Below, piece by piece: positions 9,804-27,084 of a stretch of 64,000 nucleotides of DNA. How positions within the stretch are numbered: the stretch's first letter is position 1; each line of letters starts with the position of its first letter. Under the pieces are notes generated by a model that worked only from the letters and a program-made list of their open reading frames with translations, was not told the DNA's origin and did no database searches. The DNA comes from an uncultured Bacteroidia bacterium. GTDB taxonomy: Bacteria; Bacteroidota; Bacteroidia; NS11-12g; UBA9320. The stretch lies in the NCBI GenBank assembly GCA_943787465.1, contig CALSMN010000004.1, forward strand, positions 248,001-312,000, written 5' to 3'. The position numbers and the translations under genes are program-made.

Positions 9804-10250
9804 ATGAGAAAAATTACCATCTTATCGATCAGTTTTATTGTATTAGGTATATTACTTTTTGTATACAGAATGTTTAATAAACCACACACAGATGTTTTAA
9901 ATACAAAGGCCAATGTTGAAATGACAGCAATCGAATTATTTACCTATTTCGATACCAACGAAGATTCCGCAACCATCAAATATTCTGATCAAATAATTGT
10001 TGTAAGTGGTGTCTTACATTCTAAAGATCTAAGCAATGAATTAGAGCCACAAATACTGATAAAAACCAATGAAGATGACGGATTTATTCGCTGTGGATTC
10101 AAACCTGAATATTTGAACAATATTAATTCGCTAAAAGAATCTTCAACTATCAAGGTTAAAGGAATTTGCAAAGGGCTAAATGGAGATGACGATTTAGAAC
10201 TTTTAAGTGATAAAGACGTTGTGTTATCATCTAGCATACTTATTGAATAA
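9804..10250 (+). CDS. Membrane-anchored OB-fold protein (tRNA_anti-like)
   Basis: A 148-residue protein with an uncleaved-looking N-terminal helix (about 4-23) followed by a small beta domain. The segment from VVVSGVL to KVKGICKG (about 65-125) has the spacing of the tRNA_anti-like OB fold found in many Bacteroidota periplasmic proteins. Despite its name, that family has no known tRNA role. The gene sits between the cytochrome c and YceI genes with 5- and 8-bp gaps. Its job there is not known. Confidence 0.72.
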   Translation: MRKITILSISFIVLGILLFVYRMFNKPHTDVLNTKANVEMTAIELFTYFDTNEDSATIKYSDQIIVVSGVLHSKDLSNELEPQILIKTNEDDGFIRCGFKPEYLNNINSLKESSTIKVKGICKGLNGDDDLELLSDKDVVLSSSILIE

Positions 10251-10258
10251 CAGATATT

Positions 10259-10816
10259 ATGAAAAAAACAATCATTTATAGCCTACTATTTACAATAGCT
10301 ACAGCATTCACCACGCATAGTGGAGGAATCTACAAAACCAACACAGGAAATATCAATTTTTACAGCCATACACCCGTAGAAGATATAACTGCAGATAATC
10401 ACAAAGTGAAAACAGCATTTTCAGCCGAAAATGGAAAAATTCAGTTTAGTTGTTTGATTAAAGATTTTGAATTTAAAAAAGCACTAATGCAAGAACATTT
10501 CAATGAAAATTACATGGAAAGCACAACCTATCCCAAAGCTACTTTTGATGGGACTATTTCTTCCATATCAACTATTGATCTTGGCAAAGATGGGACATAT
10601 ACCTCACCAGTTGTAGGAAAACTTACTATAAAAGATGTAACTAAGGATGTAACTACACTAGGTACATTTACAGTAAAAAATGGCTTAGTAAATGCAAAAG
10701 CCACATTTAACCTAAACCCCTATGACTATAATGTTTCTATCCCCAAAATGGTTGCTCCAAAAATATCTGATAGTATTAAAATCTCTATAGATATTGATTA
10801 TACTCACCAACATTAG
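10259..10816 (+). CDS. YceI-family lipid-binding periplasmic protein
   Basis: YceI proteins are lipocalin-like barrels that bind isoprenoids such as polyprenyl chains or quinones. This one has a signal peptide (about 1-20). The family pattern is clear: TGNINFYSHTPVEDITA near the mature N terminus, SCLIKDFEF, MQEHFNENYMES-TYPKATF near 80-95, and a C-terminal KLTIKDVTK-V. Length 185 fits. With a cytochrome c next to it, binding of a quinone-like lipid is an attractive but untested idea. Confidence 0.92.
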   Translation: MKKTIIYSLLFTIATAFTTHSGGIYKTNTGNINFYSHTPVEDITADNHKVKTAFSAENGKIQFSCLIKDFEFKKALMQEHFNENYMESTTYPKATFDGTISSISTIDLGKDGTYTSPVVGKLTIKDVTKDVTTLGTFTVKNGLVNAKATFNLNPYDYNVSIPKMVAPKISDSIKISIDIDYTHQH

Positions 10817-10833
10817 AAATTGAACATGGTAAA

Positions 10834-11718
10834 GTGAAAATCCGTTCAATCATACTTTTTTATCTACTATCTGTTGTCTTTCTTCTATCTTGGCCCAGTC
10901 TATTATATGCTCAAGAACTTAGCTTACTAGAAGAAGATGAGTCATCAACTTCAGATCGAGTAATTGCTACATTCAAGACCAATAGAATTGTCAATGGTCA
11001 CAGCATAGAAACGGTTGCTAAGAATGAATTTGATTTCAAAATTTCCCATCGATTTGGTGTTCTTAATCAAGGATTTTACGATTTATTTGGTCTGGACCAA
11101 GCTACGATGAGAATGGGTGGAGACTTCGGTATCACCGATAATCTCAATATTGGTATAGGCAGAAGCACCGTAGAAAAAACATATGATGGATTTATTAAAT
11201 ATAAATTTTTAAAACAAACTCAAAATACTGAGTCTGTACCTATTTCTGCTGTCCTCATAAGCCATATAGGCATTAATACACTTAAATGGGCGCAACCTGA
11301 ACGAGATAATAAATTTACGAGTCGATTACATTATACCCACCAATTGCTAGTCGCTCGTAAATTTTCAACTAATTTTAGTGCTCAATTAAGCCCAACACTC
11401 GTACATAAAAACTTGGTGGAATCCAATGAGAAACCCAATGACATTTTTGCGCTTGGTTTCGGGGCAAGACATAAAATTACACCAAGAACCACGGTAAATA
11501 TTGAATACTTCCATGTTTTTCCAAATCAACTGGATATCAACGCTGCGAACGCATTATCAGTAGGGTTTGATATTGAGACAGGGGGGCATGTATTTCAACT
11601 CTTTTTTACTAATTCGACTGCTCCTTTTGAGAAGGGATTTATAACAGATACCAAGGGAAAATGGAATGATGGAAACATCCGTTTTGGATTTAACATTGCT
11701 CGAGTCTTTAATTTTTAA
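10834..11718 (+). CDS. DUF5777-family outer-membrane beta-barrel protein
   Basis: The 294-residue protein begins with a signal peptide ending LLYAQ-E (about residue 27). It continues as alternating beta strands typical of an outer-membrane barrel, with FKTNRIVNGHSIETV and ISHRFGVLNQGF-DLFGLD near the mature N terminus, which I associate with DUF5777. The chosen start is GTG 10834, which gives a normal K-rich signal peptide. It closes the cytochrome/OB/YceI cluster and is 17 bp behind the YceI gene. The family is of unknown function. Confidence 0.8.
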   Translation: MKIRSIILFYLLSVVFLLSWPSLLYAQELSLLEEDESSTSDRVIATFKTNRIVNGHSIETVAKNEFDFKISHRFGVLNQGFYDLFGLDQATMRMGGDFGITDNLNIGIGRSTVEKTYDGFIKYKFLKQTQNTESVPISAVLISHIGINTLKWAQPERDNKFTSRLHYTHQLLVARKFSTNFSAQLSPTLVHKNLVESNEKPNDIFALGFGARHKITPRTTVNIEYFHVFPNQLDINAANALSVGFDIETGGHVFQLFFTNSTAPFEKGFITDTKGKWNDGNIRFGFNIARVFNF

Positions 11719-11734
11719 TAACTTTGAAGATTAG

Positions 11735-14275
11735 GTGGATCCTCTAAACACATATCGAAAATTTTTTAAATCTATCAGAATACTTTTAATAACACCATTA
11801 CTCTTGATGGGAGTTTTCTTATCCGAAGCTTCGCATGTTGTGGGTGGAGAGTTGTTTTACAATAGGGTTGGAAATGCCCGATATGAAATTGTCTTCAAAA
11901 TTTATTTTGATTGTCAAAATGCAAATCCAGGTGTAATAGACCGAGATGGAAGCAATGCATATATCGGAATATTCAACGCCAAAACAAATGCAAGAATTCA
12001 AACTATCACACTCAGTAATGGAATACGAAAAATTGTAAATTCAGTCAATTATGAATGTGTTAAAGAACCCTCAGGAGTATGTGTCGTGGAATATACTTTC
12101 AGAAGGACTATAAATATTAATCCTGGTACGGATGGTTTAATTTTATCTCACCAATTATGTTGTAGAAATGCCATAACTGATAATGTAAATGATGCTGGAA
12201 ATACAGGCTCAACCTATTGGTGCTATATTCCCCCTTTAAATATTATTAATTCAAGTCCTAGATTCAAAAATACCCCTCCTACCTATGTATGTTTAAATGC
12301 ACCCTTATCATTAGATTATAGTGCAGAGGATCCAGATGGAGACTCATTGGTCTATGAATTTTATACTCCCTTCTTAGGAGGCTCTGCAACAGATCCAAAG
12401 CCAGACAACCCAAGCTCCCCCCCTTACTCACGAATAACGTGGGAACCCTCATTTTCGGCTAACAACCAGATAACTGGGAACCCGGCTAGTTTTATTGATA
12501 GAAAAACTGGCCAATACACGCTCACTCCAACTGTTAAAGGAACTTATGCCGTTGGAGTTCGCGTGCTAGAGTACCGAAATGGTGCCTTCTTAAGTGCCAC
12601 ACTCAGTGATTATCAATTTACGGTTATTGAATGTGAATTTGATGTGATCGCTAATTTTAATATCCCAGGAGGAACCGCTGTTGGAGGATCTTACGCTTTT
12701 GAATGCGGTGACACAGCTCGATTTAGAAATATTAGTTCTTGGAACATCAATAAAACCCCAAAAGTCAAATTTTTCTGGGATTTTGGAGACCCAACAACTA
12801 CACGTGATACACTTACAACCTTTGATTTAAATACACCCGTTGAATATATTTATCCGGGTAATGGCAATTATACCGTTACGCTAACCATTATTTCATCGAT
12901 TTGTAACGATACTTATAAATATGGTGTTCGAATTCGATCTACAAAAGGATTTAACCTGGGTCCAGACCAAATCTATTGCGAAGACTTCTCCCTTCTCTTA
13001 GATACCAGAGCCGCTGATGCTGTCTCTGTAGATTGGAATACTGGTGACAAGGGAAGTCAAATTACAGTCTCAGATACAGGCACTTATATTGCTACCGTAT
13101 CGTATGGTAACTGCAAATACAAAGATACTATCCAGTTATTTTATGACAAAGTCCCTCCATTAAAATTGCCTGAAGACACTCTAGAATGTGACACTCTTGT
13201 AAATATATTATTGGATGCAGGTGTCGATGGTCTTCAATATTCATGGAATACCGCTCCCCCTACCTTTTCACAAACCTTAAACGTAACAAGCATCGGCGAA
13301 TATATAGTTACCGCAAGCAACCTCAATTGTACGGTTAAAGATACTACCCGAGTATGGCAAGCTAGTCATCCTGAAGTAGATGATGCATTTTATTGTGATG
13401 AATTTAACCATAGTGTTGATCTTTCTGGCATACCAGAAGCAATCTATTTATGGAGTAATGGAAGTACCGCTCCTGTAAATACGTTTGATGAAAAAGGCGA
13501 GCACTGGGTCCAAATAAAACAACGTCATTGCATTCACACAGACACCTTCATAATAGATAATTCGATTATTCGTTTGGAACTTGGGGATGATCAACATTTT
13601 TGCGACGTAGTCGATTTACAGTTAGACGCAGGACCTGATGGAGTTAAATATACATGGAGTAACGGAGAATCAACTCAAATTATTAATATCAACAAGGCCG
13701 ATAAGTACCTGGTAATTGTCGAAAATAGTGACGGTTGTTTAAAGTCTGATTCCATTATCATTAGTGTATCGCAATCACCTGAAATCAGTATTGGAAATGA
13801 CACAACTATTTGTCTAAATTCTCCAACACTCATAGCTGCTCCAGCAGGATTTATTGCTTATCAATGGAATACTGGGAGTACCGAACCCAGCATATCAACA
13901 ATTCTTGAAGGATCATATGTTGTTGAGGTTACTGATGGTTTTGGCTGTACTGGAAGTGATAGTTTATATGTTACCGTAGATCCCAATGCGCTACCTAACG
14001 AATTGTTTTTTCCTAACGCATTTACGCCTAACGGAGATAATTTAAATGAGCTTTTCCCTTACCAATTAGATGTACTTCAACCTGCATACTACATTATAAT
14101 CTACTCCCGATGGGGAGAAAAAATATTTGACTCCCGCACGAGTGTATCTAAAAACTGGGATGGGACCTATAAAGGTAAACCTGTACCCCCTGAAACATAC
14201 ATATTTTATGTGAATTATCGAGGATGCGATGGAAATACCCGCAATGCTCGCGGCACTGTCAATCCCATTTATTGA
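11735..14275 (+). CDS. Gliding-motility-type surface protein with T9SS type B domain
   Basis: An 846-residue secreted protein. A signal segment (about 16-33) precedes the mature start SHVVGGELFYN, which I have seen at the N terminus of many Bacteroidota surface proteins. A PKD-like module appears near 345-400 (FFWDFGDP). Repeated beta modules then follow with the pattern LDAG-DG-YTW-NG (about 490-680). The last 90 or so residues are a type B T9SS domain: FPNAFTPNGDNLNE, YSRWGEKIF, WDGTYKGKPVPPETYIFYV. Such proteins are exported by T9SS and act as adhesins. Start GTG 11735. Its 3' end overlaps the convergent NUDIX gene by 17 bp. Confidence 0.85.
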   Translation: MDPLNTYRKFFKSIRILLITPLLLMGVFLSEASHVVGGELFYNRVGNARYEIVFKIYFDCQNANPGVIDRDGSNAYIGIFNAKTNARIQTITLSNGIRKIVNSVNYECVKEPSGVCVVEYTFRRTININPGTDGLILSHQLCCRNAITDNVNDAGNTGSTYWCYIPPLNIINSSPRFKNTPPTYVCLNAPLSLDYSAEDPDGDSLVYEFYTPFLGGSATDPKPDNPSSPPYSRITWEPSFSANNQITGNPASFIDRKTGQYTLTPTVKGTYAVGVRVLEYRNGAFLSATLSDYQFTVIECEFDVIANFNIPGGTAVGGSYAFECGDTARFRNISSWNINKTPKVKFFWDFGDPTTTRDTLTTFDLNTPVEYIYPGNGNYTVTLTIISSICNDTYKYGVRIRSTKGFNLGPDQIYCEDFSLLLDTRAADAVSVDWNTGDKGSQITVSDTGTYIATVSYGNCKYKDTIQLFYDKVPPLKLPEDTLECDTLVNILLDAGVDGLQYSWNTAPPTFSQTLNVTSIGEYIVTASNLNCTVKDTTRVWQASHPEVDDAFYCDEFNHSVDLSGIPEAIYLWSNGSTAPVNTFDEKGEHWVQIKQRHCIHTDTFIIDNSIIRLELGDDQHFCDVVDLQLDAGPDGVKYTWSNGESTQIININKADKYLVIVENSDGCLKSDSIIISVSQSPEISIGNDTTICLNSPTLIAAPAGFIAYQWNTGSTEPSISTILEGSYVVEVTDGFGCTGSDSLYVTVDPNALPNELFFPNAFTPNGDNLNELFPYQLDVLQPAYYIIIYSRWGEKIFDSRTSVSKNWDGTYKGKPVPPETYIFYVNYRGCDGNTRNARGTVNPIY

Positions 14276-16533: not shown

Positions 16534-16586
16534 TCATCAGGCAACCCTTTTCTTCTTCTTATCATCTTGAATAAAGTAAACCTACT

Positions 16587-17129
16587 ATGAGCCACAAACT
16601 AAGTGATGAAATATCATTAATCAAAGCTTGTAGCCAAGGAGACCACACTGCATTTAAAAAGATATATAATCATTACAAAGGAAAAATGTTTAGCATATGT
16701 TTACGATATATGAACACGCATGACGAGGCCCAAGATGTCTTACAAGATGGCTTTATCAAAGTATATCATAAAATTTCTACCTTTTCCTTTGCAGGTAGTT
16801 TCGAGGGTTGGATGAAACGAATCTTTGTTCACACCTGTATCGAGTTCATCCGAAAACAAAAGCAGCATAAGGATATCAATGAACTAACCGAAATGGACAA
16901 CATAACCGTTTCAGAAATGACCGTTAGCTCAATGGATGCCGATAAATTAATTGAGCTCATCAAGGAATTGCCAAAAGGATATCGAACTGTATTCAATATG
17001 TATGTAATAGATGGTTACTCACACAAACAAATAAGTGCCGCACTTCAAATTTCAGAAAGTACCAGCAAAACGCAGCTCTTTAAAGCAAGAAAACAACTTC
17101 AAATTTGGTTAAAAGGATGGTTTGAATAA
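16587..17129 (+). CDS. ECF-type RNA polymerase sigma factor
   Basis: A 180-residue group 4 sigma factor. Region 2 covers about residues 8-75 (HTAFKKIYNHYKGKMF, then AQDVLQDGFIKVYHKISTF). Region 4 covers about 118-172 (LPKGYRTVFNMYVIDGYSHKQISAALQISESTSKTQLFKARKQL), a helix-turn-helix for the -35 region. There is no extra C-terminal domain. Its stop shares one base with the ATG of the next gene (TAATG), so the two are translationally coupled, as sigma/anti-sigma pairs usually are. The likely targets include the downstream surface-protein gene, but no promoter motif for it could be shown. Confidence 0.93.
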   Translation: MSHKLSDEISLIKACSQGDHTAFKKIYNHYKGKMFSICLRYMNTHDEAQDVLQDGFIKVYHKISTFSFAGSFEGWMKRIFVHTCIEFIRKQKQHKDINELTEMDNITVSEMTVSSMDADKLIELIKELPKGYRTVFNMYVIDGYSHKQISAALQISESTSKTQLFKARKQLQIWLKGWFE

Positions 17130-18337
17130 TGAAAAAGTTCAAAAACATAGCAGAATTTGAATCAGCGTTAAAGAAACAGCTAGAACAGCATAGTGTGCAA
17201 CCTCCTGAACATCTCTTTGATAAACTAAATTTAGATGTCAAACCTCAAAATATCGCACATGGAAATAAATTCATCAAGCTAATTACTCATCCATTAACTG
17301 TAATAAAAATGGCTATACTAGCAGCTAGCATTATTAGTGTGGTCTATTTTGCAACAAGAACAGATACTCAAATACATGAAGTAAATAAGGAAAAAATCCT
17401 CGTTGACACTTTGGTTGAGGATATAAAAATAATACCAATTAGTCCGTCAGATGATATAGATCAATCTAAAGATGAACCCGATCTAGATAAAAACACGCCA
17501 AACTTAAAGACCAATCGTTCAGAAGAAACAGCAAAGTCTCTTCTTGAAAATACCATTCAAAACCACTCGATTATTGAAGAAGAAAAACCGCCTACAAATA
17601 ATTTGTTCAACTCAAATCAGGCTAAGCTCACCGTTTCAAACATATCGCCATGCATTGGTGAAACAGTAACGTTACAGGCTAACATGACTGGTGACTGGTT
17701 GATAAATAATATATTGATTGATACAAACAAAAAAGAAATTTCACTCACACCTGAGAGTAACAAACCTATTCATGTGAAGTTTCATAATAAACAAGAGGTT
17801 ATTTCTCAAACCATACAACCTTCTATCACGAGTACATCCATTATCACCCAAAAATTAGATAATTTCAACTATCAATTCAAGTTAAATGACACGAACATTC
17901 AGGCCAATTGGTTTGCAGATAATGAATTAATAGCTTCGCGTTCAAGTGATGTTACCTTCTCTACGAGAACAGTAGGTGAACATACCATAAAAGCTGTTCC
18001 CTTGCAGTCATGTGCTACAGAACAAAACATAACAATTCGTGTCAAAGGGAAAGGCTCTATTGCATTTTTTAATGTCTTTACACCTAATGGAGATGGTACA
18101 AATGATGAATATACCGTTGATATAAAACATTATACACTATTTGACATTCAGATTTTTAATCAATTGAATAATCAATTAATTTTCACATCGAGTAATCCTG
18201 AAATTAAATGGAATGGTCAAATAAACAATGACGGTCAGGAGTGCTCTCCTGGAGAATATGTTGCTAAGGTTAAATATCAATTGGAAGGAGAAAAACCTGA
18301 AATAAAAAACATTAAATTCACGCTATTACGCCCATAA
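17129..18337 (+). CDS. Single-pass membrane protein at anti-sigma position with T9SS type B-like domain
   Basis: The 402-residue protein has a short cytoplasmic N terminus (F-E-S-A-L-K-K-Q-L and PPEHLFDKL, about 8-35) like that of Bacteroidota anti-sigma-like proteins. One membrane helix follows (about 57-76), then a low-complexity linker (80-170) and two Ig-like modules. The final 90 or so residues are homologous to type B T9SS domains (VFTPNGDGTNDEY near 315, WNGQINNDGQECSPGEYVAKV). The usual RWG(E) motif after the second strand is replaced by N-Q-L-N. An inner-membrane helix plus an export tail is an unusual combination. Anti-sigma activity is inferred from position and N terminus only. 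It is coupled to the sigma gene before it and is 2 bp from the next. Confidence 0.8.
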   Translation: MKKFKNIAEFESALKKQLEQHSVQPPEHLFDKLNLDVKPQNIAHGNKFIKLITHPLTVIKMAILAASIISVVYFATRTDTQIHEVNKEKILVDTLVEDIKIIPISPSDDIDQSKDEPDLDKNTPNLKTNRSEETAKSLLENTIQNHSIIEEEKPPTNNLFNSNQAKLTVSNISPCIGETVTLQANMTGDWLINNILIDTNKKEISLTPESNKPIHVKFHNKQEVISQTIQPSITSTSIITQKLDNFNYQFKLNDTNIQANWFADNELIASRSSDVTFSTRTVGEHTIKAVPLQSCATEQNITIRVKGKGSIAFFNVFTPNGDGTNDEYTVDIKHYTLFDIQIFNQLNNQLIFTSSNPEIKWNGQINNDGQECSPGEYVAKVKYQLEGEKPEIKNIKFTLLRP

Positions 18338-18351
18338 ATTTGAATATTATC

Positions 18352-21300
18352 ATGAAGCAGACTAAATTTACAAACTTTTTAAACCGAAAATATACACCAT
18401 CTATGTATCAAACAATCCACAAATCACTCGCATTTAAGTATATATTTACCTTTGTACTTGTAACTAGCAGCCTATTTAGTTTTGCTCAGTGTAGCCCTAA
18501 AGTTGTTCGTACTGACGGAACTTTAAGTACTTCTGGCACTTTTTGTGAAGGTCAAATTATTGCATTTGAAGCCAATTCTCCCGGGTATACCACTACCATC
18601 GAATGGGACTTTGGATACAATAGCAATAAGAGTAGTGCAGAAAAACCTACATTCAATTATCCATTGGCAGGAAATTATACCGTGACCTTCAAGGGAGATG
18701 GATTTGCTGGTCAGTGTACAGAAACTATTGCCATCACTATCAAACCCTCTCCGGATATTCACTTTAGACGGTTGAACGATTCTGCTCAATGTTTCAAAAA
18801 CAATTCTTTTTGTTTTAAAGATAGCTCACAAGCCCCTAGTGGTCTAATTGTGCGTCAAACATATGTATTTAGTAACGGTCTTCGTATAGATTCTATCAAT
18901 CCAACCTTTCCGTATAGTTTTTGTGTAGATATTACAGACCCCAGCGGTGGTTACTTTGATTTAGTAATCGAGTCGGAAGATTCAAGTGGCTGTGTAAGTA
19001 AATTGATTTTCCAGGATTATTTATACGTCTATCCCAAACTAGGTATCGAATTTCAAAACATCACCCCAAATCCTAACCCCAATTGTGACTCAACACTGGG
19101 TCGATTCAAAAATGTTTCTTTGGTTCCCCTTGCCGACGTTGACTCTTTTATGTGGGTATTTGGAGACGGAGATTCTGTAAAAGGAGACGCATCAACCAAT
19201 ACTGAATGGTGGAATGGTCCAGCTAATGACGGTATTATCGAACATATGTACCGAAAAAATGGCACATTTGATGGTACTTTAATAGCCTCTGCATACGGAT
19301 GTACCGATACATTTACATTCCGGGCCGCGGTTAGTAATATCTTATTAGAACCCAAGATCCTGTCCACACCTAACCCAGCGTGTACACCAGATAATCCTAT
19401 TTCATTTTCTGTACAAGGATTGAATGGAGCCAATGTAAGTTCCTTCCTCTGGAATTTTGGTAATCCACCAGCAGGCCCCCCTAACCTCAACGATAAAACA
19501 TTAACCCCTGAATTCTCCTATGGACCAGGACCATGGATGATTAGTTTGAGACTCCGATCTGGACCTTGTGATATTACAGTTTATGATACTGTCCAAGTCA
19601 TTGGACCTGGATCTACGATCGAAGTGCCATTCGATCGAGTTGCCGAAGATCAAGCGTTTCAATGTGTGATTGAAGATACCGTTTGTTTCCCCAATAATTC
19701 CTCATTTTACCAAAATGACTTTAACCGATTAGACGAAGATTCTATCGTTTTTTATTACGATTATACATTTGAACGTGTATTTGACATCACATCGGGGCAA
19801 TACACCTTTAGATACCGAACATGGGAAGAACGACCTAGAGGTAATTTCTTATTAACCGATAGCGTATATGCCAATACCGATACCATAAAACAAAACGGTT
19901 ATCGCGTTTATTATGATGCCACTAAAGATTCCATTGCTGCAATTCAAGGTAATGATACAACGTGGCACAAAGACTTTTATGCAACAGCACCTAACTTAAG
20001 CTATCGTTTTGGAGTTAATGGCAGAAAACGTTTTATTTTTAATTATATCCCACCTACAGGTAGAGGTGGTGTAGGAACGGGTGATCAAACCGCTATTCCT
20101 CCTGCAGTTCAATTTAAAGATTTCAGACCTAATGTATGGAGAGTGTGGGATATGGGAGATCAATATGCTCCTCAATGTACTACAGACTCTAGACCATGGG
20201 TCAATAAGAATGTCGGCATTAACTGTAATTGGGTCATAGATAGTGCACCATGTCATTGGTACACGCCTTGGGATGAGGTATACCGAACCTTCCAAGAGGG
20301 TAGAAACTACACGCAACCTTATCGTGAAACACGTATCTATAAACCACTTCGAGAATGTTATCAAGTTAATATTTACGCAGCAGACACCATGATTGTGCCT
20401 GGAGATACCATTCTAACGATACCCATTGATTCTTCTTATACCTATCGAGGTGTAACTATTCCTGCTGGAGTGCGGTACCCCAAAAATAAACTAGGCAATT
20501 GGATTGTCAGACGACCACCCTCCATATTTTATGGAACAAAATTTTATTGGGATGCAGCGCTTGATACGTTTGTAGCAATCAATAACATTGTAGATACCAC
20601 CTACCATGACGAAGATTCATTAGGAAGAAATAATCCACTCAATGGGAAAGGAACTACCCAATGGACTGTCACCTATCATGATATGGAATTTACGATACCA
20701 ACAGGGGTGACCATTGATATTGTTAAACTCCAAGGTCCAGGTGGCGGTGGAGCTGGAGCAGGAGGTACCAGAACGTTAACTGGTCCACAAACTGTAATCA
20801 TTGAAGCTGATGAACAATTTACACTTTATTCATTGGATTCAATAATACCAACTATTTATATAGAAGAAAATGGGCCTGACACATCTTATGCTCAACCGTC
20901 CAACTATGTTACTGAAGAATTAAAGTTTGGCATACTGGTAAGAACAGTCAAACAAGCTGTATTTGTAGATTCTGCTGCTCATCGAGAAAAATGGTTTACC
21001 GATAGAGCAACCTGTTTTAATGTTTCATTATGGCAAAAAGATACCATTCACCCCCTATTGTGTGAGGCAACTGGCACAAAATCATTAGCGCTTATTCCAC
21101 CTAATGCCAAAGGTTTAGAATGGGTAAGTGGTACGCCCTGTCCATTTGATGGGAATAACCTAAATTATATTTTAACCTTTGATATTTCAGAGACTAAACC
21201 GGGTTGTACTCAACAGTGGTTTGCTGTTAATTTAGATACATTCGCTGATCCTAATGCATTTATACCATTCAATAATGGATTACTAGCTCCCCCTCCTCCA

Positions 21301-24192
21301 GGACTTCCTATACCGTTTGTATTACCTTACGCTATTCGAGGAAATCTAGGCACTCGTTTTGTTAAGGGATACTCTCCAGGTGAAATTGGTAATCCGTATG
21401 CTCGAAATCCAATCGGATCTTTTGCTCTTGGACTAATTGTTGGAAATGGAAAACCTGATCCAAATGGTGGACCTCCAGCATGTTTAGATACATTTTATTA
21501 CCCCGATTTATTTAGAATTTTGCCATTAGATGCATCATTCGAAATTGTATATCCTCTTCCTATCAGCACAACTCCTTTACAATACTATATGTGTCCTGGT
21601 GATACCGCATACTATAGAATCATAAACCCTATCCAAGATAGTATCAAAACTCTTCGTTGGGCTTGGGGTTACCAAGGACTTGGGAAAGGACCCAATCTCT
21701 CTATTTATGTAGAAGAATTCCAATATTACCAACCGTACAAGGGTCCACGACCAAATCGAAATGATAAAGATATTGTTTACAACGGTGAGGATTGGCTATA
21801 TAACTATGTAGTTAGGAGAAATATTGACGATATATTGGGTGAAGAATTGCTTGATACTATAGTTACATCTATCATCAAAGATTGGAAAATAGTTGCCATA
21901 AAAACCAATACTGATCAACTGATAAAAGATGCCTTTGAACAATTACTTGGTTTAAACTACAGTGAAATTCCTGCAGAAGATGTTCCCTATTACCTTGGTG
22001 ATGGCACTTTTGGTTGTCTGGACACAACTGGAATTAGCGACTTGTTCCAATTTGGTATTCAAGTTTATTCTGACAAAACCAAAGATTGGGGCGTAACTCG
22101 GGTAGGTGATAAAATTTACCGATTAGATACCACTGTAAGACCATTCCAAAATATTGAAACACAACATATCCTCCACTTTAGAGATTCGTCCATGCAAGGA
22201 TTTGATACTTTAATGCTCGATACCAATTTTGATGGAAGAAAAGATAGACTCACCGGTTTATACCGTCACATTTATAAATACCCAGTGATAACTAATCCAG
22301 ATGAATGTAATCCATCGGTAAAAGATACCATCTATAGAAATGGAAGCGGACCTATGGCTCCATCCTTATTCTTAAATAGCACGCCTGGTTGTGAGGCCAG
22401 ATCTACGCAGCTTCTGAATGTTGGCTTCTATAATGATTTCTGGGTTAGAAATGAGAATTTATGTCAGGGATTAAACTTGGTAATTGAAGATTCACTGCGT
22501 TATTACCAATATGGAGAACAGGATCCATTTACTTATCCTATCCACGATTTCCCACTATGGCAAACACGATATATTACAAATGAAGAGACCTATCGAGCAG
22601 ATTGGGATATCAATGATGGTCAGTTTGATAGTACGCGATCTATTATTCTGAATCATACGTATACCGATCCTGGAGAATATACCATTACGGTTGTTGCTGA
22701 GGATAGTATTGGATGTACAGACACTACCTTCTTGAAGGCATACGTTTCTAAAGTTATCCCTGGATTTGATTTCGGAAGTGCTATTGTAAATTGTGCATCT
22801 ATCATAAACTTCAAGGATACATCTACATACATAGACCCATGTGCTGCCAAGGATACGTGTTCGAATGGTACTGATTTATCCTGCGAGAAAATCATTGCTT
22901 GGGAATGGGATTTTGGCGATGGCACACGAAAAAGTATTCTTCAAAATCCATCACACAACTATACCTCTGGCGGATATTATGATGTACGACTGATTGTAAC
23001 AACAGAACTTGGATGTGTAGACAGCATTATTCAAACGATATATATCCCCGGACCACAACCTGAATTTGAATTTGATAACGCTGTTTGGAACATAAATGAC
23101 ACCGCTGTTATCTGTGTTGGTGATTTAGTTAACCTTAAAAATACAAGTAAAGGAGATGTAAACACTCCTAAATTCCAAATCATTTGGGGTGACGGAAGCA
23201 ACGACCCTCCTGCAGGCATCGATTCTATTTTTGGTCACGTTTACAACACACCTGGAACGTACGAGTTATTCCTTATACAGGAAGATGAAATCCCAGGTAC
23301 TGGAAATCGTTGTTCGAGAATATTCCCAGATACCAATCCAGATCTATTGATTCAACACCGAATTGTAGTTATTGTAAATCCTCGACCTGATGTTTTAATT
23401 ACAGCATCAGACACCGTAGTTTGTCCAGATGATCCAATTGTATTCACTGGTACATTGGATGACCGATATCTCCGATTGAAATGGTTAATGGGCTACAACA
23501 ATGATGAAATCAATGAAGTAGTACCAGACACTACTGTAACCTACGCATACCCCGTGTCCGGAACATACCAAGTCATTCTTGCACCAGAATATGATGAATT
23601 GCCCAGATGTTGGGATAGAGACACAATCACTGTTCGGGTTGTCGATGTAAAAGCTAGTTTTGATATAGATAGTTCTGCTAGACCGGAATTCTGCTTTACC
23701 AATACCTCCACAGGCGCTACAAGCTACCGATGGACTTTTGAAGAAACACCCCCATTGATTGATGGTGCCAGTGAAGAAACAGATCCATGTTACAACTGGG
23801 ACGAACGAAAAGGAACATACAAAGTATGTCTAACGGCTATCAGTTCTGAAGGATGTGAAGATGATACCTGTCAGATTGTATCTAATACATTCTTGAGACG
23901 ACTCGTTCCATATAACGTATTTACGCCTAATGGATCAGATGATTTTAATAATGAATTTGTAATTGAAGGGGAAAGCCTTGATGAATATGAAATTAAAATC
24001 TTCAACCGATGGGGAGAATCCGTGTTTGAATCTTCAGACATCAACAAATCATGGAACGGTAAAGTAAATAATACGGGGGTAGAATGTCCTGAAGGAACCT
24101 ACTTCTATATTATTAACTATACCTTCAAATTTGGTGAGAAAAATGAAGGTTTAGGTCCTATTGAAGGATCTGTAGAATTGATTCGACAATAA
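18352..24192 (+). CDS. Giant PKD-type surface protein with T9SS type B domain
   Basis: At about 1946 residues (from ATG 18352), this is the largest gene here and probably a cell-surface adhesin exported by T9SS. A signal helix (KYIFTFVLVTSSLFSFAQ) comes after about 25 extra residues, so ATG 18403 is an alternative start. PKD-like modules appear near the N terminus (WDFGYN, WVFGDGDS, WNFGNPP; about residues 85-390) and again near the C terminus (WDFGDGTRKS about 1524, WGDGSNDPP about 1610). About 1000 residues between them show no repeat I can place, apart from a Gly-rich GPGGGGAGAGG. The type B domain (VFTPNGSDD, FNRWGE, WNGKVNNTGVECPEGTYFY) closes it. It is third in the sigma-factor unit and is followed by a terminator. 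Confidence 0.88.
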   Translation: MKQTKFTNFLNRKYTPSMYQTIHKSLAFKYIFTFVLVTSSLFSFAQCSPKVVRTDGTLSTSGTFCEGQIIAFEANSPGYTTTIEWDFGYNSNKSSAEKPTFNYPLAGNYTVTFKGDGFAGQCTETIAITIKPSPDIHFRRLNDSAQCFKNNSFCFKDSSQAPSGLIVRQTYVFSNGLRIDSINPTFPYSFCVDITDPSGGYFDLVIESEDSSGCVSKLIFQDYLYVYPKLGIEFQNITPNPNPNCDSTLGRFKNVSLVPLADVDSFMWVFGDGDSVKGDASTNTEWWNGPANDGIIEHMYRKNGTFDGTLIASAYGCTDTFTFRAAVSNILLEPKILSTPNPACTPDNPISFSVQGLNGANVSSFLWNFGNPPAGPPNLNDKTLTPEFSYGPGPWMISLRLRSGPCDITVYDTVQVIGPGSTIEVPFDRVAEDQAFQCVIEDTVCFPNNSSFYQNDFNRLDEDSIVFYYDYTFERVFDITSGQYTFRYRTWEERPRGNFLLTDSVYANTDTIKQNGYRVYYDATKDSIAAIQGNDTTWHKDFYATAPNLSYRFGVNGRKRFIFNYIPPTGRGGVGTGDQTAIPPAVQFKDFRPNVWRVWDMGDQYAPQCTTDSRPWVNKNVGINCNWVIDSAPCHWYTPWDEVYRTFQEGRNYTQPYRETRIYKPLRECYQVNIYAADTMIVPGDTILTIPIDSSYTYRGVTIPAGVRYPKNKLGNWIVRRPPSIFYGTKFYWDAALDTFVAINNIVDTTYHDEDSLGRNNPLNGKGTTQWTVTYHDMEFTIPTGVTIDIVKLQGPGGGGAGAGGTRTLTGPQTVIIEADEQFTLYSLDSIIPTIYIEENGPDTSYAQPSNYVTEELKFGILVRTVKQAVFVDSAAHREKWFTDRATCFNVSLWQKDTIHPLLCEATGTKSLALIPPNAKGLEWVSGTPCPFDGNNLNYILTFDISETKPGCTQQWFAVNLDTFADPNAFIPFNNGLLAPPPPGLPIPFVLPYAIRGNLGTRFVKGYSPGEIGNPYARNPIGSFALGLIVGNGKPDPNGGPPACLDTFYYPDLFRILPLDASFEIVYPLPISTTPLQYYMCPGDTAYYRIINPIQDSIKTLRWAWGYQGLGKGPNLSIYVEEFQYYQPYKGPRPNRNDKDIVYNGEDWLYNYVVRRNIDDILGEELLDTIVTSIIKDWKIVAIKTNTDQLIKDAFEQLLGLNYSEIPAEDVPYYLGDGTFGCLDTTGISDLFQFGIQVYSDKTKDWGVTRVGDKIYRLDTTVRPFQNIETQHILHFRDSSMQGFDTLMLDTNFDGRKDRLTGLYRHIYKYPVITNPDECNPSVKDTIYRNGSGPMAPSLFLNSTPGCEARSTQLLNVGFYNDFWVRNENLCQGLNLVIEDSLRYYQYGEQDPFTYPIHDFPLWQTRYITNEETYRADWDINDGQFDSTRSIILNHTYTDPGEYTITVVAEDSIGCTDTTFLKAYVSKVIPGFDFGSAIVNCASIINFKDTSTYIDPCAAKDTCSNGTDLSCEKIIAWEWDFGDGTRKSILQNPSHNYTSGGYYDVRLIVTTELGCVDSIIQTIYIPGPQPEFEFDNAVWNINDTAVICVGDLVNLKNTSKGDVNTPKFQIIWGDGSNDPPAGIDSIFGHVYNTPGTYELFLIQEDEIPGTGNRCSRIFPDTNPDLLIQHRIVVIVNPRPDVLITASDTVVCPDDPIVFTGTLDDRYLRLKWLMGYNNDEINEVVPDTTVTYAYPVSGTYQVILAPEYDELPRCWDRDTITVRVVDVKASFDIDSSARPEFCFTNTSTGATSYRWTFEETPPLIDGASEETDPCYNWDERKGTYKVCLTAISSEGCEDDTCQIVSNTFLRRLVPYNVFTPNGSDDFNNEFVIEGESLDEYEIKIFNRWGESVFESSDINKSWNGKVNNTGVECPEGTYFYIINYTFKFGEKNEGLGPIEGSVELIRQ

Positions 24193-24425: not shown

Positions 24426-27084
24426 ATGAATAAAAAAATAGCCAATTATTTGCGCTTGAGTGGTCTAGAACCCCTAGTTAAGTCCCCCAATATAAATTTT
24501 ATGAATATTGGGGAACGAACCAATATTACAGGATCCAAAAAATTTGCTAAACTTATATTAAATAATCAATTTGATGAAGCGGTTGACGTCGCAAGACAAC
24601 AAGTTGAAAATGGAGCACAAATCATTGATGTAAACATGGATGAAGGTATGCTCGATGGGAAGGCAGCAATGATTCAATTTTTAAACCTCATTGCTGCAGA
24701 ACCGGATATTTCTCGGGTACCTGTTATGGTAGACTCCAGTAAATGGGAAATCATAGAAGCAGGTCTTAAAGTCATTCAAGGAAAGGGAATTGTCAACTCC
24801 ATTAGTCTCAAGGACGGAGAAGCAGAGTTTATTCGACGTGCTAAAAAAATCAAGTGGTATGGAGCAGCTACCGTAGTAATGGCATTTGACGAAAATGGTC
24901 AGGCTGATACTTATCAAAAAAGGATAAACATCTGTAAACGGAGTTACGACATTTTAGTAGATATCGTAAAATTCCCTGCCGAAGATATCATTTTTGACCC
25001 TAACATTCTTACCGTAGCCACTGGAATTGAGGAACATAATAATTATGCCGTAGACTTCATTAATGCGACTCGTTGGATTAAAGAAAATCTTCCTTTTGCT
25101 AAAGTAAGTGGCGGGGTAAGCAACATATCCTTCAGTTTTAGAGGAAATAATATCATTCGAGAAGCCATGCATTCGGCCTTTCTTTATCATGCTATCAAAG
25201 CAGGATTAGATATGGGAATTGTAAATGCAGGAATGATTGAAGTATATGAAGAACTTCCCAAAAATATTCTTGAAGCTGTCGAAGATGTATTGTTAAATCG
25301 GCATGATGCAGCCACAGAAAATCTCATCATTTTGGCAGAGAGTGTAAAAGGGGATGGGAAAAAAATAGTTCAAGATTTAAGCTGGCGAGAAGAAAATGTA
25401 TATGAACGATTAAAACACTCCTTGGTCAAAGGAATAACCGAATATATTGAAGCAGATACCGAAGAAGTCAGACAACAATTGGATAAGCCCATTGAAGTTA
25501 TCGAAGGCCCATTGATGGCAGGCATGAGTGTCGTCGGCGATTTGTTTGGTAGTGGGAAAATGTTTTTACCTCAGGTTGTTAAAAGTGCTCGCGTAATGAA
25601 AAAATCCGTAGCTTACTCTACAGCCCTACCTTGAAGCAGAAAAAAGTGGAGGAAATACTCAGGGGAAAATTCTCATGGCAACGGTAAAAGGCGATGTCCA
25701 CGATATTGGAAAAAACATCGTGGGTGTTGTACTGGCGTGTAACAATTACGAAATTATCGACTTAGGAGTAATGGTGCCTACCAATACCATCATAGATGCT
25801 GCGATTGAACATCAGGTAGATATCATCGGTTTGAGTGGCTTAATCACACCCAGTCTCGATGAGATGGTAAACATCGCTGCTGAAATGGAACGAAGATCAT
25901 TATCCATCCCAATACTTATTGGAGGAGCAACCACATCGAGAATGCATACGGCTGTGAAAGTGGCACCCGAATATTCAGGACCAGTGGTACACGTTCTAGA
26001 TGCCTCCAGATCTGTTCCCGTTGCTGGTCAGTTAATTGGTCTGAAAACAAAAGATACCTTCACAGCACAAATCCGAAAAGAATACACCGAACTAGCTATT
26101 CAACATGCGGCAAGGCAATCTGAAAAAACGATACTCTCCTATATGGATGCCAAAGCAAATCGTATTTCAATAGATTGGGAAAATTACACCCCACCACAGC
26201 CCAAGAAGCAAGGCATTGAAGTTCTTGCTGATTTTGATCTTGGAACGTTACGTGATTATATTGATTGGACCCCTTTCTTTTCTACGTGGCAACTTAAGGG
26301 TAAATACCCACTCATTTTTGAAGATGCTTACGTAGGTAATGAAGCCAAAAAATTATTTAAGGATGCCCAACACATGTTAGACCAGCTAATTACCAAAAAG
26401 CTGCTAACAGCCAACGGGATAGTTGGAATATTTGAGGCCTATGAGGAAAATGGAGACATTACGTTGCCCCAAGAAAATTTTACATTTCACTGTCTTCGTC
26501 AACAGCGCAAAATGGGTACTCATATTCCGAATTTATCATTGGCTGACTTTATTGCTCCTAAAACCATTTCCCAAAAAGACTATTTGGGAGCTTTTGCTGT
26601 GACAACTGGTGTCGGTATAGAAAAAATAGTAGCAGAATACGAAAAAGACCACGATGATTACAACGCCATTTTAGTAAAAGCTATTGCCGACCGATTGGCA
26701 GAAGCATTTGCAGAATATTTACACCAGTATGTTCGAAAAAAAATGTGGGGATATTCCCCCAACGAAGTACTAAACAATGATTTACTCATTCGAGAAAAGT
26801 ACCGTGGTATTCGCCCTGCTCCTGGGTATCCTGCATGTCCTGATCATTCCGAAAAAGCAAAACTATGGAAGCTTTTAGATATCGAAAATCAAACAGGGAT
26901 TAGCCTCACGGAGAGTTATGCCATGTACCCCACTGCAGCCGTCTCGGGATTTTATTTTTCTCATCCCGAAAGTAGATATTTTGCCGTAGGAAAAATAGGA
27001 GAAGATCAGCTAATAGACTATGCAAAACGAAAATCAGTAGATTATACTATCGCAAAAAAATGGTTGGGACCTAATTTATTCTAA
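24426..27084 (+). CDS. metH: Cobalamin-dependent methionine synthase lacking Hcy domain, frameshifted
   Basis: MetH moves a methyl group from methyl-tetrahydrofolate to cobalamin and on to homocysteine. This gene starts at the pterin domain ([16 protein letters not shown], about 20-35) and lacks the homocysteine/zinc domain, as in split MetH systems of Bacteroidota where a separate protein supplies it. Later come the cap helix [30 protein letters not shown], the cobalamin motif DVHDIG, and the activation domain ([28 protein letters not shown]). The frame breaks: the first part ends at TGA 25632-25634, while skipping one base at about 25616-25617 restores [18 protein letters not shown] and runs to 27084 (about 885 residues). 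The gene is under SAM riboswitch control. Confidence 0.92.

Follow-up and report, generated by a model that had tools for sequence, protein, structure and literature searches.

An anti-sigma-like protein of Bacteroidota that ends in a type IX secretion type B domain and may link sigma-factor release to the state of the secretion machinery

PMC13088901 describes the Dma family, whose members consist of an anti-sigma domain, a helix, a disordered tether, and an outer-membrane barrel and are encoded beside a sigma factor of the extracytoplasmic function (ECF) group ECF21; the work on Dma1, Das1, and NigD1 covered there links a gene set of sigma factor, barrel protein, and NigD. The closest described systems on the secretion side are the type B domains of the type IX secretion system (T9SS): in Flavobacterium johnsoniae, according to PMC12618676, secretion or recognition by the shuttle depends on every one of five conserved type B motifs, all five proved to be required for secretion when tested in SprB, and type B shuttles are limiting, with cargo and shuttle forming cognate pairs. 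Here we analyze a stretch of 64,000 nucleotides (the window) from the genome of an uncultured Bacteroidia bacterium (GenBank GCA_943787465.1, contig CALSMN010000004.1, positions 248,001 to 312,000), in which the genes of an ECF sigma factor, a 402-residue membrane protein (the middle protein), and a giant PKD and type B protein (the giant) form a single operon from 16587 to 24192 on the forward strand. The middle protein has the layout of the Dma family with a type B domain instead of the barrel, and the statement in an initial annotation of this DNA that no described system is built this way therefore fails against the family as PMC13088901 presents it. We propose, with a probability of roughly 0.5, that the middle protein may be an anti-sigma factor on the Dma plan that reads the occupancy of the T9SS or of a shuttle through a docking type B domain and would so license the giant cargo.

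The operon has the following parts, each given with the evidence for its assignment; immunoglobulin is abbreviated Ig, and the predicted local distance difference test score of AlphaFold2 is abbreviated pLDDT.

16539..16568, + strand: predicted autoregulatory ECF promoter, AGGCAACC-N16-CATCTT, 18 nucleotides 5' of the sigma start codon
16587..17129, + strand: ECF sigma factor, 180 residues, of the group that precedes Dma-like anti-sigma proteins (Pfam; neighbors of relatives)
17129..18337, + strand: one-helix anti-sigma-like protein with a C-terminal T9SS type B domain, 402 residues (Pfam and NCBIfam profiles, AlphaFold2)
17129..17263, + strand: cytoplasmic N-terminal segment of the middle protein, residues 1-45, putative sigma-binding domain (profile match to barrel-type N termini)
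17294..17353, + strand: transmembrane helix, residues 56-75 (hydropathy; AlphaFold2 helix 56-75)
17354..17608, + strand: disordered periplasmic tether, about residues 76-160 (low pLDDT, composition)
17609..18043, + strand: two Ig-like modules, residues 161-305 (pLDDT above 90; dispensable)
18044..18334, + strand: type B T9SS domain of the middle protein, residues 306-402, without the Trp of NRWG(E) (PF13585, TIGR04131)
18403..24192, + strand: giant exported PKD protein (PKD_4 and PKD matches; conserved Met, signal peptide)
23911..24189, + strand: type B T9SS domain of the giant, with the canonical NRWGE (PF13585 69.6 bits; motif count)

The sigma gene is carried by 52 loci of relatives, 8 of which are cut by contig ends; the remaining 44 all have the three genes in order, so the arrangement is not a matter of chance. 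Picking of open reading frames (ORFs) found 43 of these 44, and in the other, L097, the middle gene is intact although the picker missed it. Represented among the loci are the window's genus and family as well as another family of that order, and the same three-gene unit, with an orthologous giant (hidden Markov model of the central region, E-values 1e-39 and 9e-30), occurs on the complete chromosome of Bacteroidetes bacterium UKL13-3 and in one further metagenome-assembled genome (MAG), respectively. The initial annotation had taken sigma factor, membrane-anchored type B protein, and giant as one unit, which the 44/44 uncut loci bear out, and further details were seen again: the sigma stop codon and the ATG of the middle gene overlap by one base (TAATG, 17129), and the middle protein has a single membrane helix, Ig-like modules, and a type B domain. 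The 2-bp gap that it placed before the giant holds for the TTG at 18340 that opens the ORF; further candidate starts are an ATG at 18352 and the Met at 18403, which is conserved in relatives, lies there directly before the signal peptide, and leaves a gap of 65 bp. On this comparison of sequences we prefer Met 18403 over TTG 18340.

In the middle protein, one hydrophobic helix at about residues 56-75 is followed by a disordered stretch, two Ig-like modules, and the type B domain. No cleavable signal peptide is evident, a 55-residue motif-bearing segment preceding the helix (no signal-peptide predictor was run). AlphaFold2 with 48 orthologs places helices at residues 7-20, 28-33, and 56-75, gives a pLDDT under 50 for residues 34-153 and 155-159, and is confident after about residue 165 for the Ig-like modules, with pLDDT above 90, and the type B domain; the disorder-promoting composition of the tether is 0.72, against 0.57 in the type B domain. 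Fold searches with the 402-residue model returned generic Ig and FnIII matches. The distance from helix to type B domain, Ig modules included, ranges from 109 to 272 residues in 48 orthologs, and about 10 orthologs, of 282-304 residues, have no Ig modules. These modules are thus dispensable, which leaves the putative sigma-binding segment and the type B domain as the constant ends of a protein whose constant parts are N-terminal motif, helix, tether, and type B domain.

The family motif xxFDxLFKxxLxxxxxxPPxxVWxxV lies within residues 1-45. Aligned with hhalign, the N termini of the type B form match those of the barrel form with a probability of 98.4% (E 5e-15), or 98.1% (E 1e-13) after removal of the helix, whereas controls consisting of the giants' N termini and reversed sequences reach 0.3-0.6%. 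By this comparison of profiles the cytoplasmic end is homologous to the N terminus of Dma-like anti-sigma proteins, in agreement with the earlier view of this short end as the anti-sigma-like part. At L201, L227, L155, L177, L163, and L197, the first gene after the sigma gene encodes the roughly 40-residue motif in at least two tandem copies before the helix, so that the anti-sigma segment can be multiplied.

The sigma ORF, of 180 residues, matches Sigma70_r2 (54.5 bits) and Sigma70_r4_2 (59.9 bits) in Pfam, and a sequence scan and a tree place it in the same family as the sigma factors beside barrel-type proteins. Its relatives across Bacteroidota, as followed in a scan of named genomes and a map of neighbors, mostly precede a one-helix protein with the same N-terminal motif that ends in a barrel or a type B domain or has nothing large at its C terminus. 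In a Parabacteroides relative, the genes of the sigma factor, the barrel protein (PF13568, 39.9 bits), and NigD are consecutive, and the window's genome holds three further pairs of sigma factor and one-helix protein with barrel-like C termini, two of the barrel matches being weak and one protein having none. The proposed tie to Dma1-3 is drawn from layout, neighbors, and barrel-type relatives. Elsewhere in the same genome (L145:2060-2635; contig C3, about 72560-73135), a sigma gene cut down to region 4 follows the PKD-like stretch of an exported protein in frame and is immediately followed by a one-helix barrel-like gene; candidate causes are an assembly error, decay, or recombination.

The C-terminal domain of the middle protein scores 46.6 bits against PF13585 (cut-off 27) and 36.4 bits against TIGR04131 (cut-off 35). 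With both the Pfam and the NCBIfam profile above cut-off, it is a real type B domain, as first annotated, and not an unrelated Ig fold. The middle protein and its four closest relatives are 36-41% identical over the whole length, 62-68% in the type B domain, 38-46% at the N terminus, and 26-32% in the middle part, and for the same four the values are 67-70% for the sigma factor, 86-88% for the giant, and 90-91% for MetH. Judged by these identities, no part of the middle protein is better conserved than its type B domain, which is under purifying selection.

The signatures FTPNGDG-ND, W[ND]G, and GxY are retained by the anti-sigma type B domains of at least ten families. At the NRWG(E) turn, Trp occurs in 59/65 cargo domains (39/44 giants, the other five having Tyr or Phe; 12/13 other domains of the window's genome, the other having Tyr; and 8/8 others) versus 0/79 domains of anti-sigma proteins, a contrast for which, as the sequences are related, a Fisher test value is no true probability and which is to be read as one loss, or a few, retained in at least ten families. 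The 79 comprise 61 domains in the motif count, 17 from other families read by eye, and L097. With this Trp missing from the turn, the domain is probably not an ordinary, working export signal and would instead serve for docking or sensing.

Upstream of the sigma gene we find the promoter consensus RGCAACY-N16-CATCTW, in strict form in 44/52 loci versus 0.4% of random 130-bp windows. The promoter stands at the sigma gene in all 12 genus members searched, and the strict form is unique in the window's genome, its sole site being the sigma gene; GCAACY-N16 sites of a similar kind precede part of the wider sigma family. Because of this conserved promoter, the operon is probably self-activating, and its three genes are probably transcribed from the one sigma-dependent site. 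A loose pattern tried for a regulon search gave 50 matches, against 71 in the control, and in view of this lack of excess only the strict form was used.

A second promoter site lies 5' of the gene of a MORN-repeat exported protein in 7 of the 9 ortholog loci examined, partly in a relaxed form; in several genus members (L288:1500-2752, L287, L268, and L291-L294) the promoter of this type is found about 80-150 bp upstream. The window's genome has no ortholog of the MORN-repeat protein, with weak repeat matches only.

Beyond the window's order, a sample of 149 genomes of the class revealed eight further families in which a full-length anti-sigma-like protein of the type B form is encoded behind a sigma gene; together with the order's own two these make at least ten. 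Some of these proteins are encoded near another large type B protein and others are not. Neither the tree of the sigma factors nor that of the type B domains decided between a single origin and multiple origins of the type B form. Two MAG contigs labeled Sphingomonadales and Treponema (L154 and L173, respectively) also bear Bacteroidota sigma loci and are probably mislabeled or misbinned.

The giant matches the Pfam profiles PKD_4 and PKD and ends in a type B domain (PF13585 69.6 bits, TIGR04131 39.7 bits), so that its description as a PKD protein with the same kind of type B domain as the middle protein stands. The label "adhesin" that came with this description was only a guess, and the conservation of the giant among close relatives, nearly that of MetH, argues against a fast-changing adhesin. 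About 43 cysteines occur in most giant orthologs. To judge from these sequences, the giant would be a conserved surface protein, more like a structural protein than a variable adhesin. Its middle part gave no meaningful fold match, with TM-scores of at most 0.12 by query length and at most 0.21 by target length among the matches listed.

In the mechanism that we propose, the cytoplasmic domain of roughly 40 residues would hold the sigma factor, the single helix would anchor the protein in the inner membrane, and the disordered tether would be able to reach the outer membrane. The type B domain, in place of the Dma barrel, would dock, while itself staying unexported, with either the T9SS or a PorP/SprF-type shuttle and would in this way signal whether cargo occupies this machinery or leaves it free. 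Altered docking would then release the sigma factor, which would transcribe its own operon from the conserved promoter and thereby yield the last-encoded product, the giant type B cargo protein. The initial annotation had likewise suggested that the protein could sense T9SS traffic, with release of the sigma factor either when export is free or when it is blocked. Sigma binding, the docking partner, the direction of the switch, and the giant as regulated output are what we infer here. The window's genome encodes SprA (2434 bits) and three PorP/SprF-family proteins above cut-off, versus about 16 type B domains.

Some of our results weigh against this proposal. The cut-off of TIGR04131 is exceeded by just 1.4 bits in the middle protein. 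That NRWG(E) is one of the five motifs required for secretion is something we infer, since the residues of the motifs are not given in the text of PMC12618676. In the Crocinitomicaceae and some other families, the pair of sigma factor and type B protein is found without a following type B cargo gene, so control of a giant is not universal. The cultivable relatives Fluviicola and Crocinitomix carry the pair and have no giant next to it. We also considered a shuttle shared by the operon's two type B domains on the basis of their likeness, and found it unsupported: the domains are 32% identical, while the average over all pairs in the genome is 31%, and being no more alike than average they give no indication of a common shuttle.

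The main rival explanation takes the type B domain as only an outer-membrane attachment that replaces the Dma barrel, in which case a protein spanning both membranes would sense the state of the outer membrane or envelope and not T9SS traffic. It draws on the Dma layout and tether, with the terminal domain swapped within the same sigma family, on the proposal in PMC13088901 that Dma2 senses something at the outer-membrane surface, and on the Ig modules of many orthologs, which could face a ligand. However, where these modules are absent, in about 10 orthologs, the type B domain is the sole constant candidate for a ligand-binding part, and the loss of the NRWG(E) Trp speaks against ordinary surface export; we therefore regard this explanation as rather unlikely. 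A FlgM-like logic, in which a working T9SS pulls on the ectodomain or exports it and cleavage of the protein then releases the sigma factor, has the precedent of FlgM and sigma-28 and would explain why an anti-sigma-like protein bears a domain of the very machine by which the operon's other product is exported. We find it improbable, because the NRWG(E) Trp is lost in 79/79 domains, while all five motifs are needed for the secretion of SprB (PMC12618676), and because the cleavage site is purely hypothetical. An ordinary one-helix anti-sigma factor whose type B domain has degenerated and lost its function would fit the low TIGR04131 score and the missing Trp. We give this reading very little credence, since the domain is the most conserved of the protein (62-68% versus 26-32% for the middle part in close relatives) and, over at least ten families, has kept FTPNGDG-ND, W[ND]G, and GxY. 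Finally, a TIGR04131 match marginally above cut-off does little to make believable that the middle protein is T9SS cargo, with the helix belonging to a signal peptide of long n-region and the sigma gene being an incidental neighbor, given an N terminus homologous to Dma-like proteins, a sigma gene adjoining in every family examined, and the absence of the signature Trp of cargo.

Away from the operon, the window contains a second PKD and type B protein of 846 residues (11735-14275, within 9804-14275), preceded by genes for a DUF5777 barrel, a YceI-like protein, and a tRNA_anti-like protein. Downstream of the giant, MetH is split over two neighboring ORFs, at 24426-25634 and 25675-27084. As the former continues to the cut end of the locus in several relatives, a frameshift in the window is possible.

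Taken to its full breadth, the docking proposal would describe a widespread class of Bacteroidota anti-sigma factors in which a non-exported type B mimic reads the occupancy of the T9SS or of a limiting shuttle, so that export capacity licenses the synthesis of giant cargo; in this general form we advance it only tentatively. If this holds, the T9SS would have its first known checkpoint of secretion status. As to the matching of very large T9SS cargo to export capacity in Bacteroidota, the known link, PorXY-SigP, controls components of the machine; in the operon described here, a putative sigma-binding segment and a domain from the family of export signals are united in a single conserved protein. 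From the missing Trp follows a testable prediction, namely that the domain docks and is not exported.

Among known systems, the FlgM/sigma-28 checkpoint, in which export of the anti-sigma factor relieves sigma inhibition, offers a possible likeness in that the state of a secretion machine controls a sigma factor, but FlgM, a small soluble substrate of the flagellar export machine, has no homology to the middle protein, whose own export is hypothetical. Literature searches, with the founding Dma paper and the EcfO paper outside their coverage, turned up no description of an anti-sigma factor combined with a T9SS C-terminal domain; PorA came closest. In the PorA/PorXY-SigP system of Porphyromonas gingivalis, a protein with a T9SS C-terminal domain likewise influences a T9SS-tied ECF sigma factor, and sigP is autoregulated; PorA differs in being a surface protein that acts via a two-component system, with anti-sigma and secretion domains not joined in one protein. 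With T9SS type B cargo (SprB and others, with their PorP/SprF shuttles), the middle protein shares the C-terminal domain family (PF13585, TIGR04131), but it has a 55-residue cytoplasmic end and an anchor helix, lacks the Trp in the NRWG(E) turn, and has no shuttle gene adjacent to its own. Like Dma as described in PMC13088901, it has an N-terminal cytoplasmic domain, a single helix, and a long disordered tether, and its gene lies next to that of a sigma factor; in contrast to Dma, it ends in a type B domain, often after Ig modules, and not in an outer-membrane barrel, and in the window's order the operon ends in a giant T9SS cargo gene. With a C terminus that belongs to PF13585 and TIGR04131 and is not a barrel, the middle protein is no Dma member in the strict sense; together with its relatives in at least ten families of the class, it extends the recently described Dma plan for anti-sigma factors beyond barrels to secretion domains, a spread that would make this plan a general, modular regulatory design.

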